Assembly: GCA_021850485.1 (NCBI GenBank)
Contig: JAJZLY010000007.1
Coordinates: forward strand, 97,864 to 161,863
DNA: 64,000 nucleotides
Direction: 5' to 3'
DNA from: Bacillota bacterium
GTDB lineage: Bacteria > Bacillota > Sulfobacillia > JAJZYS01 > JAJZLH01
Shown here: positions 3,215 through 11,275 of the stretch, piece by piece
Layout: every line of letters starts with the position of its first letter
Position numbering within the stretch: the first letter of the stretch is position 1
Translations under genes and position numbers: made by a program
The notes under the pieces: model-generated
The model's database searches: none
Seen by the model: only the letters and a program-made list of their open reading frames with translations
What the model was told of the DNA's origin: nothing

Positions 3215-4738
3215 ATGCTCGATCATGACATTTGCTACCGGGCGGTCCAAAGCAGAGATGCTCGCTTTGACGGCATGTTCTTCACCGCGGTGCGCACCAC
3301 CGGCATCTACTGCCGGCCGAGTTGTGGTGCCAGGACGCCGCTGCGTGACCATGTGCACTTCTATCCGACGGCCGCGGCGGCTCAGCAGGCTGGATACAGG
3401 GCCTGTAAGCGGTGCCGTCCGGATGCCACCCCCAACTCTCCGGAATGGAACAGCCGGTCCGACGTCGTGGGCCGGGCGATGCGCCTGATCGCCGACGGCG
3501 TCGTCGATCGCGAGGGCGTGGCCGGACTCGCCAAGCGGCTGTCCTACAGCCCCAGGCAGGTCAACCGTCAACTTTTGGCGGAACTGGGCGCCGGCCCTCA
3601 GGCCTTAGCCCGGGCCCAACGCAGCCGCACCGCCCGCATCTTGCTGGAGACAACGGCTCGCCCGATGACGGACGTGGCATTCGCAGCGGGATTTCGCAGT
3701 GTGCGCCAGTTCAACGAAACCATCCGGGCTGTGTATGCGCTCACGCCCAGTGCCGTACGCTCTCGGGTGCACCCCCGCACGGCCGCTCCCCAAGGCCCGA
3801 GCGCCGATGTGATCCGACTTCGGCTGCCCTATCGGCCGCCGCTCGATTTCCGGGGTCTCTTGGAGTTCCTGGCGGCCCGGGCTATCCCCGGCGTCGAGGA
3901 ATGCACTAGCGACACCTACAGACGGGTGTTGGCTCTGCCACACCAGCTGGCCGTTGTATCTCTGCAGGCACCCCAACGGTCGCTCCAGACAACGCCATCG
4001 GTCCGTTCGCCCTACATCGATTGCGCGATCCGCTTGCAAGACTTGCGCGACCTAACCGCCGCCGTGCAGCGCTGCCGCCGGCTGCTCGACCTGGACTCTG
4101 ATCCGCAGGCCGTCGCCGCCGTGCTGATGGGTGATGCCCGCTTGGCTCCGCTCGTCGCTGCCAACCCGGGCCGCCGGGTAGTAGGTCACGTCGATGAGCA
4201 TGAACTGGCGGTGCGAGCGGTGCTCGGCCAGCAGGTCTCGATCGCCGCCGCTCGCTCGCTTGCCGGCAAACTCTCCGTCCGCTATGGCGAAGCTCTGCCT
4301 GCTGCCGACGGCACGCTCACCCATGCCTTTCCGACGGCCGCGGCCTTGGCCGCGGCGGCGCCGCTGGATCTGCCCATGCCGAATGCCCGCCGGCAGGCGT
4401 TAGGCGCCCTGATCGCGGCGCTGGCCGAGGGCAGGATCAGACTCGATGCCGGTGCCGACCGCGACGCGGTGTCAGCGCAGCTAGAAGAGTTGCCTGGGAT
4501 CGGTCCTTGGACTGTCGCCTACATTCGCATGCGTTCGCTGTCTGATCCGGACGCCTTCTTGGCGACCGACTTGGGCCTGCGGCAGGCCATGGCCAAGCTC
4601 GGCCTGCCCACCGGCCGTAAGGAGGTGTTGGCCCTGGCCGACAAGTGGCGACCGTGGCGAGCCTACGCCCAGCAATACCTGTGGGCCGTGACCGGGACCA
4701 GGTTAGCGCCTCAGTCGTCTGATGGTGTGCGAGCGTAG
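3215..4738 (+). CDS. Ada-AlkA fusion: methylphosphotriester sensor, AraC-type regulator and 3-methyladenine DNA glycosylase
   Basis: This 507-residue protein joins three modules. Residues 1-75 are the Ada zinc/methyl-acceptor domain with Cys33, Cys37, Cys64 and Cys67; Cys33 in the TTGIYCRPSC motif is the expected acceptor from DNA phosphotriesters. Residues about 85-185 are an AraC-type helix-turn-helix. Residues about 198-500 are an AlkA glycosylase with a helix-hairpin-helix (LPGIGPWTVAYIR, 426-438) and the catalytic Asp452. Such fusions sense alkylation damage, activate transcription and excise alkylated bases. The ATG at 3215 has only a weak SD. A methylguanine-DNA methyltransferase gene follows 51 bases later, giving an adaptive-response pair. 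Confidence 0.95.
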   Translation: MLDHDICYRAVQSRDARFDGMFFTAVRTTGIYCRPSCGARTPLRDHVHFYPTAAAAQQAGYRACKRCRPDATPNSPEWNSRSDVVGRAMRLIADGVVDREGVAGLAKRLSYSPRQVNRQLLAELGAGPQALARAQRSRTARILLETTARPMTDVAFAAGFRSVRQFNETIRAVYALTPSAVRSRVHPRTAAPQGPSADVIRLRLPYRPPLDFRGLLEFLAARAIPGVEECTSDTYRRVLALPHQLAVVSLQAPQRSLQTTPSVRSPYIDCAIRLQDLRDLTAAVQRCRRLLDLDSDPQAVAAVLMGDARLAPLVAANPGRRVVGHVDEHELAVRAVLGQQVSIAAARSLAGKLSVRYGEALPAADGTLTHAFPTAAALAAAAPLDLPMPNARRQALGALIAALAEGRIRLDAGADRDAVSAQLEELPGIGPWTVAYIRMRSLSDPDAFLATDLGLRQAMAKLGLPTGRKEVLALADKWRPWRAYAQQYLWAVTGTRLAPQSSDGVRA

Positions 4739-4789
4739 GCCGCAGATCGTCTCGCCCCAGTCTCATGTCAGCACAGCGAGGTGACGGCA

Positions 4790-5326
4790 GTGTCAGTACA
4801 TATCGATCTTGTCGACGAGACAGAATTGGCCAGCCCTGCGGCCAGGAGCCGATTTTACGCCACGGTGGCGAGTCCGGTCGGGGAGTTGCTCCTGCTCTCC
4901 GACGGGGTCGCGCTGACTGGGCTCTACATGTCTGCAAACCGGTTTTCGCCCCAGATCTCAGCCGCCATGCGCCAGGACCGGGCCCCTTTTGGCGAGGCGC
5001 TCCGTCAGCTTAGGGCCTACTTCGACCATCAGCTGACCGCCTTCGAGCTGCCCATCGCGCCCTACGGCACCCCGTTCCAGCGACGGGTCTGGCAAGCGCT
5101 GTTGGCGATTCCCTATGGCCAGACCACAAGCTACGGACAACTGGCTCACCTCCTGGGCGATGCCAGAGCGGGGCGCGCCGTCGGGCACGCCAACGCGAGA
5201 AACCCGCTCGCCCTGATCGTGCCCTGCCACCGGGTGATCAGTTCGTCTGGCCGGCTGACCGGCTATGCCGGCGGCGTAGAGCAAAAGCAGTGGCTGCTGG
5301 CCCACGAGGCGGTCGCAGCGCGATGA
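4790..5326 (+). CDS. ogt: Methylated-DNA--protein-cysteine S-methyltransferase (Ogt/MGMT)
   Basis: A 178-residue suicide repair protein that moves the methyl group of O6-methylguanine to its own Cys. The active site PCHRV is present (Cys146 counting from this start), as is the helix-turn-helix region RRVWQALLAIPYGQTTSYGQ. The GTG at 4790 is preferred over the in-frame GTG at 4781 because AGGTGA sits five bases upstream. It follows the Ada-AlkA gene in the same direction and is likely co-expressed as part of the alkylation response. The first 20 or so residues do not match the family closely. Confidence 0.95.
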   Translation: MSVHIDLVDETELASPAARSRFYATVASPVGELLLLSDGVALTGLYMSANRFSPQISAAMRQDRAPFGEALRQLRAYFDHQLTAFELPIAPYGTPFQRRVWQALLAIPYGQTTSYGQLAHLLGDARAGRAVGHANARNPLALIVPCHRVISSSGRLTGYAGGVEQKQWLLAHEAVAAR

Positions 5327-6491: not shown

Positions 6492-7520
6492 CTAGCGGTG
6501 CAGCTGACGTGCTTTCAGGTACTTCGGATCCTCCCGCCGCAACAGATCTGGATTGGTGCCCCTCTGGATAGCTGCGCCCAGGGTGATCAGGTGCATGGCG
6601 TAAAGCGCCAGCCAGGGAAAGAGCACTTCTGCCCCGCTGTCCGAGCCCAGGCCGACAGCTGCCGGATCCACCACCTTGCCCTGAAAGCCTACTGTCCGCC
6701 TGACCAGTTCGAATTCGGCTGCCCGCCGCTGGTCGCTCTTGGCGCTGAGCAGCGCGACCACCGCCGTGTCCGGGTTGGTGAGCGGAATGTAGCCATGGAA
6801 GAAGGTCTCAAAGGGGATGGCCAGGGCTGGTAGGTAGGCGGCTTCGGCCAGCTTCAGCGACCCCTCCTCGGCCACCGGCCAGACCCGGTCGGAGGCCACC
6901 AGCAAGGCATGCGTAACCTGCGTCCAGTTGATCCACTCGGCGATCTCCTGGCGTCTGGCGTACAGTGCCTCCAGACCGCTGGCCAGGCGAGCGCGATCGG
7001 GCTGCAACACGCTGCCTGATGTACCGCGCCGGCGGTCGCTGCTGGCCGCCACTTCCAGCGCCAAAAGACTAAGTACCATCACACTGACCGTATGACACAG
7101 CGACTGATCCTCGCCAAAGCCGTTGTCCACCACCACGCTCGCCAAGGACGCCGCCTCAGATTCCGGGTGACCGGTGATCAGCACCACCTGGTCCCCTTGC
7201 CGCTGGCGTCGGCGCATCAGCTCCAGGACCGTCTTGGTCTGACCGCTCTGGGTCAAGACCACCAACAAATCCTCATTGGACAGCGGCACCGCCTCCGTCA
7301 GCAGATCGCCCGCTTCCTGGCAGCCGACCGGGAATCCTTGAGCCTGAAGGTGCGTGGCGGCCAGATGGGCGGCGAAATACGAACTGCCGCAACCGGCCAA
7401 CACCAGACGACGAAACGGGCGCAACCCCTGATCGCGCAACTGCGTGCGCACCCGGTCTGGAGCGGCTAGCGACGCCACCAGCTTGGGTGTGAGACCGAGC
7501 TCGACTTCCATCCGACTCAT
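6492..7520 (-). CDS. SIS-domain protein, GlmS/AgaS isomerase-like without a glutaminase domain
   Basis: A 342-residue protein with two sugar-isomerase (SIS) domains. The first has the phosphosugar-loop signatures LAGCGSSYFAAHLA and VVLTQSGQTKTVLELM. The C-terminal tail (NPDLLRREDPKYLKARQ) resembles the closing loop of GlmS-type isomerases. There is no N-terminal glutamine amidotransferase domain, so it cannot use glutamine on its own. A strong SD (AGGAGGG) precedes the ATG at 7520, five bases after the thioesterase stop. It is the last gene of a four-gene operon with two nitrilase-fold proteins. A role as an aminosugar isomerase or deaminase is inferred, and the substrate is unknown. Confidence 0.85.
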   Translation of the reverse strand: MSRMEVELGLTPKLVASLAAPDRVRTQLRDQGLRPFRRLVLAGCGSSYFAAHLAATHLQAQGFPVGCQEAGDLLTEAVPLSNEDLLVVLTQSGQTKTVLELMRRRQRQGDQVVLITGHPESEAASLASVVVDNGFGEDQSLCHTVSVMVLSLLALEVAASSDRRRGTSGSVLQPDRARLASGLEALYARRQEIAEWINWTQVTHALLVASDRVWPVAEEGSLKLAEAAYLPALAIPFETFFHGYIPLTNPDTAVVALLSAKSDQRRAAEFELVRRTVGFQGKVVDPAAVGLGSDSGAEVLFPWLALYAMHLITLGAAIQRGTNPDLLRREDPKYLKARQLHR

Positions 7521-7525
7521 CTGCT

Positions 7526-7924
7526 TCAGCCCTCCTGCCGTCTCGCCAGAAACGTGCCCTCGGCCTCGGCCAGGATCTCCTCACCGTGACATAGGCGAGA
7601 TTTAGCCCTACCCAGCCGGCGGTGCAGCTGGATGCGCTCTGCTGTCAGCGAGAGCTCCACGCCGAGCGGCACCGGTTTCAGGAAGCGAACCGTCATCTGG
7701 GCGGTCATGCCTCGCCAGCCCTCCTCGGCCAGCGCGTAAAACATGGCTTCGTCCAGCAAGGCGCTGACCACGCCGCCGTGCGCCACCTGCCGCCAGCCCT
7801 GCACCAACTCCGGCAGCACCAGGTGAGCACTGCAGCGGCCGCCGTCCACCGTAAAATGCACCTGCAGACCGATCGGGTTGTCCGCACCACAGATCAGACA
7901 GCCCCGGTCATCGACGAGTTGCAC
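7526..7924 (-). CDS. PaaI-type hotdog-fold thioesterase
   Basis: The GTG at 7924, preceded by GAGGAGGGG, gives a 132-residue single hotdog-domain protein. The motif VAHGGVVSALLDEAM is the standard PaaI/YbgC-type acyl-CoA thioesterase signature, followed by the strand MTVRFLKPVPLG. The N-terminal CLICGADNP has a CxxC, seen in some members of the family. Its start overlaps the end of the upstream nitrilase gene by 17 bases, so translation is probably coupled. It likely cleaves an acyl thioester, but the acyl group is unknown. Confidence 0.88.
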   Translation of the reverse strand: MQLVDDRGCLICGADNPIGLQVHFTVDGGRCSAHLVLPELVQGWRQVAHGGVVSALLDEAMFYALAEEGWRGMTAQMTVRFLKPVPLGVELSLTAERIQLHRRLGRAKSRLCHGEEILAEAEGTFLARRQEG

Positions 7925-8978
7925 CGCTCGCCCCTCCTCGCCAGAATCCGCGGTAAATCGCCGGAAAGTAGGCCCGAATGAAGGCGGCGTTGGCCCGGAT
8001 CGGCTCCTCCTTGCGAAAGGCGCGCAGCGCATCCATGTCCAGATCGGCCAGCACGATCTCCTCGTCGTCGGACAGCGCCTGAGCCAAGACCCCGTCTCCA
8101 GTCGGCGTCAGATCCAACGGCGCGTAGATGCCACTGCGGCCGGTGAAGGTCAGATCCAAGGCGCTGCCCACCATGCAGGACTGGATACCGTAGACGCCGC
8201 TCTCCTGCACCCTCGGCCACAACCCGCGCAGGGACTTGAACGGGTTGCCCGAGGGGTCTGGATCGGCCACGGGCAGGCAGACCACCTCCGCGCCCTCGGC
8301 GCTCAGGATGCGAAACGTTTCGAAGTAGGTGGCATCCATACAGATCGGCTGGGCCACCCGCCCGATCGGCGTGTCCAAGACGACCAGTTCGTCGCCTGCG
8401 GCAAAGCCCCACTCGGCTTCCAGCGGCAGCAGGTGGCACTTGAGTTGGGTGCCCATCAGTTGGCCGCGCGGTCCAAACAAATAGGCGATGTTGTACACGC
8501 GCCCGTCACGGCTCATCACCGGCATCGATCCGGCCTGAATCATCATGCCGTAGTCGCGGGCCAGGCGGCTGAATACCGACAAGTAGATCCGCTCCGCCGA
8601 CTTGCCGACCAGCTCCACGATGCTGGAGACACTGAGATCCGGGCCAATGCGGGCCAGTGCCTCCTCCATCGACCCCGTGGCAGTGATCCGCTCGAAGCGG
8701 GGCAAGATGCCAAACAGCATCATGCCCACATCCTCCGGGAAGACGACCAGTTCCGCGCCGCCGGCAGCAGCCTGGTTCACCAGTTGCGATACCGTACGGG
8801 CGAAGGCGCCGGCCGAGGTCAGAAAGCGAAAGCGCATCTGGACGGCAGCCACCCGCACCACGCCCACCCGCGGCGTGGCGACGGCGCCCCGCTTCGGCCG
8901 ACCCAGCGCCCGGTGCGCCTTGCCCGGACGCGAAGCCAGCCACAGGCGAAAGCGCACCATCCACAGGTCAAAGCTCAT
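7908..8978 (-). CDS. Carbon-nitrogen hydrolase (nitrilase superfamily), catalytic triad intact
   Basis: A 356-residue nitrilase-fold enzyme. The three expected catalytic residues are visible: Glu82 in VVFPEDVG, Lys180 in TQLKCHLLP and Cys213 in QPICMDATYFE. The family hydrolyses amides, carbamoyl groups or nitriles. Compared with typical members it has an N-terminal extension of about 38 residues that is Arg-rich. It starts within the stop of the upstream paralogue (ATGA overlap at 8975-8978) and overlaps the thioesterase gene downstream. The substrate cannot be named from sequence; an amidase role linked to the SIS-domain protein is an inference. Confidence 0.9.
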   Translation of the reverse strand: MSFDLWMVRFRLWLASRPGKAHRALGRPKRGAVATPRVGVVRVAAVQMRFRFLTSAGAFARTVSQLVNQAAAGGAELVVFPEDVGMMLFGILPRFERITATGSMEEALARIGPDLSVSSIVELVGKSAERIYLSVFSRLARDYGMMIQAGSMPVMSRDGRVYNIAYLFGPRGQLMGTQLKCHLLPLEAEWGFAAGDELVVLDTPIGRVAQPICMDATYFETFRILSAEGAEVVCLPVADPDPSGNPFKSLRGLWPRVQESGVYGIQSCMVGSALDLTFTGRSGIYAPLDLTPTGDGVLAQALSDDEEIVLADLDMDALRAFRKEEPIRANAAFIRAYFPAIYRGFWRGGASGATRR

Positions 8979-9856
8979 GGCCGAGCCTCCGGTCGTTCCT
9001 GCCAGTGCCGGCGGTACAGATCCGGATTCAGGTGCCGAAGCAGCGGATAGCGTTCCCGCAGTGCATACAAATCGGCCGGCTCGAGCTTGGCTGAGCGCAC
9101 CTGCTGGGATAGGACATAGCCCGCTTCGCCAAAAAATCCGGTCTCACCGGGGGTCAGCTCACACGGGGCGAATACCGCCAGCTTCCCATCGACGCCCAGA
9201 TCGAAAAAGGTGCCGCTAAGCCCGGTCTCCAGACCGAACGTCTGGTTCTGCTGCACCTCTTGCCACAGCCCGGCCATCGCCCGCGCCGAGCCGTAGGGGG
9301 CGATCGGCGCCAATGGCGCCACCAGCAAGTCGGCGCCTTGCAAGGTGAGCACCCTGGACACCTCGGGCACCCAGGGGTCAGCCCCGAGCAACAGTCCGAC
9401 CCGCATCGGGCCCACCTGCCACACGGCCACCTCGGCCGCAGCGATCAGCTCCGCCTCCCACAGGTAGGCATGGGTCTGCTCCTGCCAGCCCAGCAGGCGT
9501 CCTTCCGGGTCGAACAGGGCAGCCCGATGGGTGTAGCCGATCGGTGCCGGCAGCCATACCGATCCCGGCACCAGGTAGATGTGGCGTTCTCTGGCCAGTT
9601 CCTCGCCGATGGCCAGATAGCTGGCCTCCAGGTCCGCTCCGGCTTGGCGCAGGCGCTCGGCCAGGCCGACCGGCACCATCGACAACTCAGCGGGCAGAAG
9701 GCCCATCGCCATCAGACCAGGAAACACTACCAGTGACTCTGTGGGCACGCCGGCGCCAGCGATGTGGCTCAGCATGACAGACTTCAGTTGTGCCGGGTCG
9801 GAGAAATGGCGAAACGGCAGACGAAAGCCAACCACCGTCAACTCGGCTGCGCTCAC
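8975..9856 (-). CDS. Nitrilase-fold protein lacking all three catalytic residues (probable pseudoenzyme)
   Basis: A 293-residue protein that aligns along its length with the nitrilase encoded next to it. The catalytic positions are changed: Glu becomes Gly47 (VVFPGLMAMG), Lys becomes Gln127 (WQEQTHAYLW) and Cys becomes Gly158 (LLLGADPW). The frame is intact and a strong SD (GAGGAGGT) precedes the GTG start at 9856, so it is not a decaying gene. It opens the operon and overlaps the active nitrilase gene by four bases. A regulatory or structural partner role for the active enzyme is the simplest inference. It is divergent from the SWIM-domain gene. Confidence 0.85.
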   Translation of the reverse strand: MSAAELTVVGFRLPFRHFSDPAQLKSVMLSHIAGAGVPTESLVVFPGLMAMGLLPAELSMVPVGLAERLRQAGADLEASYLAIGEELARERHIYLVPGSVWLPAPIGYTHRAALFDPEGRLLGWQEQTHAYLWEAELIAAAEVAVWQVGPMRVGLLLGADPWVPEVSRVLTLQGADLLVAPLAPIAPYGSARAMAGLWQEVQQNQTFGLETGLSGTFFDLGVDGKLAVFAPCELTPGETGFFGEAGYVLSQQVRSAKLEPADLYALRERYPLLRHLNPDLYRRHWQERPEARP

Positions 9857-9919
9857 CGTCGACCTCCTCGTCCTGCAGGCCGCATCTCACACCGCCGTCG
9901 AATTCCAGATGCCAAGGGA

Positions 9920-11275
9920 GTGGTCCATCTGGCAGTCTCCGCCGCTGGCGCCCAATCGCCCGCCGGCGATCGCTTTTTGTCCTTGTTCTCCCCGGCTCTG
10001 CGGCTGGTCGGGGAAGACTATGTCGGGCTGGGCCGGCTGAGTCAACTGATGGTCGCCGGCTCCTCCATCGCCGGCGCCGTCAGCGGCCAGCGCCATGACT
10101 ACTGGGTGGTGCTCACCGAGGAAAGCGCCCATTGCTCACATTGTAGCCGACCGTGTCGCCATGGGGCGGCGCTTGCCGCGGCCTGGCAGCGCACACCCCA
10201 AGACTTCGTCGATATCGTCGCCCTGACCGACCGGCTGCTGCAAACCCAAGACAGCGCGCCGCTGGTCGCCGGATTGCTTGAGGATCGGGTCCTGGACACC
10301 CTTCTAGCCTTCACCGACCTGCCCTTCATTCCTCCTTCAGACCCAGTCTTGGACCTGGCACGCCTGCCCCAACTGCAGCCGTCGGAGCAGGCGGGTGCCC
10401 TGCGCCGTCTGCTCCAGCGCTTCCCGGCTGATCCGCTCATGGTCACCCAAGCGCTCCAGCAGTTGGCACGCCTGCTCCTCACCGATCTGGCCGACATCGC
10501 CCTGCACACTGAGGGTCCTAACCTGCTGCCTCTAGCCACGGCGCTGGCCAGCCGGCTGGACGAAGACACCATGGCCACCTTCTTGGACCGGATCTTGGTC
10601 CACTTCCACGATCTGCGCTCTCGGGGCCAAGATGCCGGCCCTTTGCTGTTGCGCGCCGCCCAAATTCTGGCCCTACGCCCGAACGACACCCTGGCGTTGG
10701 CCTATCTGGCCGGCCTTCCCCAGGCGCCGCTGGCTCTTTTTGAAACTGCGGCTGAGCTGGCCCTCCTGGCTGGCTCCCCCCGTCAGGCCCTGTCCCTGCT
10801 TGATCAAGCGTTGCTCACCGCCGAAGGCGGCTCCCGGCTGCAACTCAGCGTGCGGGCCGCCGAAATCGCCGCAGCCAGTGGCAGTGCCCGCGAAGCGACA
10901 CTGTGGCTCGGTGCGCTCACGGAAGGCAGTCAGCTGGCGCTCAGCCAACTCACGCGCCGCTTCCCGCATGTGCTGCGGGCGGCGCATGGCGAGGTGGTGG
11001 CCGCACTGCTGGCCCGAGATCCAGACCTTGCCTGTCGGACGGCCCTGGCTGCTAGCGATCTGGCTCTGGCCTTTTCACTCGCCACCGATCACGACCTATC
11101 GCTGGCCACCCTAAGGCGCCTGGTGCCGCCGGCGCTTAGACGGCAAATCGATCCCACCGTCTGGTCGGTGCGTGGACTCAGCGCCGCTGAGCAGCGCCAG
11201 TTCCACCGCCTGCGCCAGCGGCCGTTGAAGCCGGCAGCGGCCAAGGGAGGTGCCAACAGCCGTGGCCAGCGCTGA
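9920..11275 (+). CDS. SWIM zinc-finger protein with helical C-terminal region
   Basis: Counting from the GTG at 9920, the protein has 451 residues. A compact SWIM-type finger lies near the N-terminus: Cys72, Cys75, Cys79 and His81 in AHCSHCSRPCRHGAALAAAW, preceded by the strand HDYWVVLTEE. SWIM fingers bind DNA or protein. The remainder is Leu/Ala-rich and helical and looks like degenerate TPR-type repeats. The start is uncertain: the frame is open upstream, but that part would overlap the divergent gene's start; TTG codons near 9977 are alternatives. It overlaps the next gene, so the two are probably co-transcribed. Confidence 0.75.
   Translation: MVHLAVSAAGAQSPAGDRFLSLFSPALRLVGEDYVGLGRLSQLMVAGSSIAGAVSGQRHDYWVVLTEESAHCSHCSRPCRHGAALAAAWQRTPQDFVDIVALTDRLLQTQDSAPLVAGLLEDRVLDTLLAFTDLPFIPPSDPVLDLARLPQLQPSEQAGALRRLLQRFPADPLMVTQALQQLARLLLTDLADIALHTEGPNLLPLATALASRLDEDTMATFLDRILVHFHDLRSRGQDAGPLLLRAAQILALRPNDTLALAYLAGLPQAPLALFETAAELALLAGSPRQALSLLDQALLTAEGGSRLQLSVRAAEIAAASGSAREATLWLGALTEGSQLALSQLTRRFPHVLRAAHGEVVAALLARDPDLACRTALAASDLALAFSLATDHDLSLATLRRLVPPALRRQIDPTVWSVRGLSAAEQRQFHRLRQRPLKPAAAKGGANSRGQR

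Follow-up and report, generated by a model that had tools for sequence, protein, structure and literature searches.

A nitrilase-superfamily enzyme and its catalytically empty paralogue as candidate subunits of one heteromeric amidase

We describe two overlapping genes in a 64,000-nucleotide stretch of a Bacillota genome (assembly GCA_021850485.1, contig JAJZLY010000007.1, positions 97,864 to 161,863; hereafter the window), one encoding a nitrilase-superfamily amidase-type enzyme (B) and the other a paralogue without a catalytic triad (A). We propose, with a probability of roughly 0.7, that A and B are subunits of one obligate heteromeric amidase in which A is a prozyme-like subunit. The initial annotation had read the two genes as an enzyme-pseudoenzyme complex, and this is strongly supported by their adjacency in 68 of 68 evaluable genomes, by natural fusions and by a compact predicted structure of the fused chain. 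If correct, this would be an obligate enzyme-pseudoenzyme pair within the nitrilase superfamily, no example of which came up in the open literature searched; nor did the open-licence literature yield a relevant paper on a nitrilase pseudoenzyme or on a link between GH125 and nitrilases. The pair is widespread and its intermediates are visible: copies of A that keep the Cys without the Glu and Lys, reduced forms of A, fusions, and pairs in which both members are dead. How a dead subunit evolved step by step could thus be tested directly, in an enzyme class that is soluble and easily assayed.

Gene layout and catalytic residues

The genes for A, B, a hotdog thioesterase and a SIS protein all lie on the reverse strand, with A upstream of B (Table 1). 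A starts with GTG, 5′ of which is an AGGAGG-type ribosome site. The coordinates confirm the spacing given in the initial annotation: A and B overlap by 4 bases (8978 versus 8975), the thioesterase overlaps B by 17 bases when read from its GTG at 7924 (its longest ORF begins at 8032), and the SIS gene starts 5 bases after the end of the thioesterase. Two further loci were noted in the window. Divergent from A is a 503-aa ORF (9764-11275, +) with a Cys/His-rich stretch (HCSHCSRPCRHG) and no Pfam match; because this ORF as called overlaps the start of A, its real start probably lies inside it. At 3215-5326 (+) an Ada/AlkA-like fusion is followed by a methylguanine-DNA methyltransferase-like gene, by sequence a DNA alkylation repair pair.

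Table 1. Coordinates of the pair, its start signals and the two downstream genes in the window.
Feature	Position	Strand	Remarks
A, pseudo-nitrilase	8975..9856	-	293 aa; Pfam CN_hydrolase 7.6e-7
B, nitrilase-superfamily amidase-type enzyme	7908..8978	-	356 aa; Pfam 1.4e-22
Hotdog (PaaI-like) thioesterase	7526..7924	-	PF03061 2.7e-8; lineage-restricted neighbour
SIS protein, related to GlmS isomerase half	6492..7520	-	PF01380 4.5e-20; genus-restricted neighbour
AGGAGG-type ribosome-binding site and GTG start of A	9854..9872	-	direct reading

Both proteins score above the Pfam CN_hydrolase (PF00795) cut-off of 23.2 bits, A with 29 bits and B with 81 bits, and their AlphaFold2 (AF2) models align with nitrilase structures with Z values of 28-31. 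B carries Glu82, Lys180, Glu187 and Cys213 and has the motif CMDATYF. At the aligned columns A has Gly47, Gln127 and Gly158 and retains the second Glu as E134, so that the substitutions claimed in the initial annotation agree exactly with the alignment. These differences extend well beyond the window. Among 81 aligned copies of B the first Glu is present in 80/80 readable sequences and the Lys, second Glu and Cys in 81/81 each, with CMDATYF invariant throughout. Among 75 A sequences the full triad never occurs: the Glu is mostly replaced by Ala or Gly, the Lys by Gln (67/75) and the Cys by Gly (57/75). A is therefore a member of the nitrilase superfamily by fold and, judged from its sequence, not a competent enzyme.

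Among solved relatives the nearest are PaNit/PH0642-type amidases, mammalian Nit2 and N-carbamoylputrescine amidohydrolase; B is far from all solved nitrilases (best match 56 bits), and neither protein reached a curated NCBIfam equivalog. Apart from A and B, we found no CN_hydrolase gene in the window's genome, which is 97% complete. The fold, and the Glu-Lys-Glu-Cys site in B, are shared with known nitrilases. However, the nitrilases described in the literature covered form homo-oligomers in which every subunit has one site, whereas here a dead paralogue stands beside an active one.

Constancy and phylogeny of the pair

When one genome of each species was searched for B, 80 loci were obtained, and A was found upstream wherever the contig reaches far enough. 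In a phylum sample of 398 genomes B, counted above 250 bits, is present in 71. A immediately precedes B, on the same strand, in 67 of these, and manual inspection of a further locus (L142) brought the count to 68; the three remaining B genes start within ~450 bases of a contig end. A thus accompanies B in 68/68 evaluable genomes, a count drawn from related sequences and not from independent events. Moreover, 18 divergent B genes of a class sample had no evident A beside them at first, and once these loci were retrieved a remnant of A was recovered in 18/18. Since the pair is conserved across the phylum, chance is ruled out as a cause of the pairing. The pattern that the initial annotation named as refuting its reading, in which the paralogue mostly stands without an active partner, was not seen; the exceptions are one orphan A and a few pairs with a dead B. 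A and B are truly fused at six loci (L025, L026, L035, L049, L073 and L075). No match was found on plasmids. Cultured hosts of the pair include Thermovorax subterraneus (L072) and Acididesulfobacillus acetoxydans (L078).

The pairs with a dead B take several forms. In one (L106, 2986-5229; genome G066) B keeps the Glu and Lys and the catalytic Cys is replaced by Gly. One family has a second A-B pair in which catalytic residues are lost from both members (L138, 2904-4863; L139, 1916-3848; L140, 2942-4884), the Cys of B again being Gly and its first Glu altered in some; in genome G174 such a double-dead pair coexists with an ordinary A-B pair elsewhere in the genome. A further pair with a dead B occurs at L148. 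Because such pairs exist, the A-B arrangement can serve something besides catalysis.

In the phylogeny A forms one clade and B another, both within a larger clade that includes unpaired single nitrilases. The nearest of these (L143-L146; clade support 1.0) resemble the pair in scoring with both the A and the B profile. Unlike the pair, each is encoded by one gene, carries Glu, Lys and Cys together with the motif ICYEGMFPE, and has no A partner. The seven A sequences that still carry the Cys form one clade (support 1.0), which branches first within A (0.88/0.77). This early branching suggests, with modest support and from sequence, that A lost the Glu and Lys before the Cys. Mirror-tree correlation was considered as proof of co-adaptation between A and B and was rejected. 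Distances correlate with r 0.83 over 66 loci, but over the 30 loci shared with GH125 the value for A and B (0.79) is nearly equalled by that for A and GH125 (0.74), so only common inheritance is shown.

Genomic neighbourhood and possible substrates

The pair has a GH125-like glycosidase in its vicinity at 35/80 loci and a GPH/MFS_2 sugar symporter at 28/80. In the phylum sample 51 of the 59 genomes with a GH125-like gene also have B (Fisher p 3.5e-39, kinship being ignored), and in 37 genomes the GH125-like gene is within 6 kb of B. These glycosidases retain the equivalents of CpGH125 Asp220 and Glu393. As the glycosidase and the symporter neighbour the pair, it is reasonable to suppose that the substrate in most lineages is a sugar-linked amide or carbamoyl compound. 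Together, GH125-like glycosidase, GPH symporter and A-B amidase would constitute an uncharacterised catabolic module. The GH125-like family is of ~614 aa and has no NCBIfam match (L061, 9113-10951, -; L020, 3313-5157; L147, 1094-2905). At five loci (L051, L052, L057, L076 and L079) a PIG-L/BshB1-like deacetylase stands between B and the GH125-like gene.

We found no match to a GH125-like gene in the window's own genome, and therefore the sugar context does not directly explain the window's genus. A thioesterase directly follows the pair in this genus and at four other loci only (L009-L012), and the order A, B, thioesterase, SIS is confined to the genus (3 genomes of 3 species; L004-L008). Given that this genome has thioesterase and SIS genes and gave no GH125-like match, the substrate in this genus may differ from that in other lineages.

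The proposed heteromer and its alternatives

The AF2 model of the window's A (pLDDT 94.5, pTM 0.92) aligns with aliphatic amidase 2uxy over 260 residues (Z 28.4, rmsd 3.0). For the natural fusion L035 (618 residues) the model has a pLDDT of 90.8, with the linker alone below 50. Its B half matches Nit2 (2w1v; Z 31.4, rmsd 2.4, 260 aligned) and its A half 7elf (Z 28.5, rmsd 2.0, 248 aligned). A pTM of 0.91 for a two-domain chain means that the A and B halves are placed confidently relative to each other, a value that rests on a shallow paired alignment of 6 fusions and 12 in-frame read-through neighbours. The fused chain is thus predicted to be one compact two-domain unit, in a model that does not identify the contacting surfaces.

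The best conserved elements of A are the helices 164-172 and 190-204, the turn 230-236 and the pseudo-site stretch 125-133. From the general features of nitrilase structures we take the two helices to be those of the family's dimer (A-) surface. In families f10 and f48 (L087-L103) A is reduced to ~205-220 aa. Most of these copies match their own profile only from ~140-165 to 286 (of 287): they have lost, or no longer recognisably contain, the regions with the Glu and Lys sites, retain the dimer-surface and C-terminal half, and usually end in Trp-Trp.

Known members of the superfamily are dimers of two alpha-beta-beta-alpha units, the monomers pairing across the A-surface (PMC4700190), and in MtCPA a swapped C-terminal segment of the dimer mate lines the active site (PMC4812014). 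In the heteromer that we propose, A would take the place of the second monomer in this canonical dimer and B would carry the sole Glu-Lys-Glu-Cys active site. A would provide dimer-surface helices, and its C-terminal arm probably extends to the entrance of B's active site, in the way that the dimer mate's arm does in homodimeric relatives. With A in the mate's place its own catalytic residues would be dispensable, and the dimer helices and C-terminal arm would have to stay, which agrees with what A has lost and kept. Moreover, the rebuilt and strictly conserved pseudo-site of A may hold a ligand by which B is tuned. We infer all three of the heterodimer in vivo, the dependence of B on A and the arm in the active site; homodimers of B might still form.

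A precedent exists in trypanosomatids, where a dead partner activates AdoMetDC (its prozyme) and deoxyhypusine synthase through a heterodimer or heterotetramer (PMC5201418, PMC3663545). As in those pairs, a dead paralogue is kept with an active copy, being regularly co-encoded with it (68/68 evaluable genomes) and at times fused to it; activation of B by A is drawn by analogy only. The trypanosomatid proteins have unrelated folds, however, and differ from A and B, which are encoded in bacterial operons and sometimes form one chain. As to origin, we give even odds to a history in which a homodimer became an obligate asymmetric heterodimer: A lost Glu and Lys and then Cys, some copies were whittled down to the dimer helices and the arm that completes the partner's site, and a few pairs became wholly dead and non-catalytic.

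The strongest alternative, though an improbable one, is that A is mainly a regulatory sensor whose structural role is secondary. A metabolite (the substrate, the product or another compound) held in a rebuilt pocket of Gln125, Gln127, His129, Glu134 and Asp160 would switch B on or off. The pseudo-site is about as conserved as an active site, with Q127, at the altered lysine position, being Gln in 51/52 A sequences and ranking 7th in conservation, H129 kept in 45/52, Q125 in 49/52 and D160 in 52/52; the neighbouring genes, moreover, serve transport and catabolism. However, in the reduced A of f10 and f48 the pocket part is unrecognisable while the dimer-surface half persists, which rules out a sensor pocket as A's universal function.

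Less probable again is that A has an activity of its own in the pathway, by a different chemistry or with a different partner, such that adjacency reflects no more than a shared operon. Some polar pocket residues are kept in A and one orphan A occurs without B (L137, genome G243). Against this, A is present at 68/68 evaluable B loci and has been fused to B repeatedly while GH125 and GPH genes come and go, and an active site of its own would be destroyed by reduction to the C-terminal half.

The initial annotation also raised the idea that the SIS protein receives amide-derived ammonia from the pair; this would amount to a GlmS-like arrangement distributed among several genes. In the window's genus the SIS gene belongs to the operon of the pair, and its product gives GlmS-type matches and resembles the GlmS isomerase half. 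Yet the pair occurs without SIS in dozens of families, and the three genomes with SIS next to it all belong to one genus. SIS was therefore rejected as a constant partner, the constant association of a split GlmS-like amidotransferase was not found, and the idea is disfavoured as a general function and, in our judgement, very unlikely. Finally, A as a decaying, functionless duplicate, suggested by the loss of all triad residues and by faster divergence (mean pairwise identity 34% in A versus 46% in B), is refuted by conservation: A is open across the phylum with P46, D160, P164, R168, W198, Q202, E210 and Y281 invariant, as are G119 and G240 in the A alignment, a pattern by which A is judged to be under selection.
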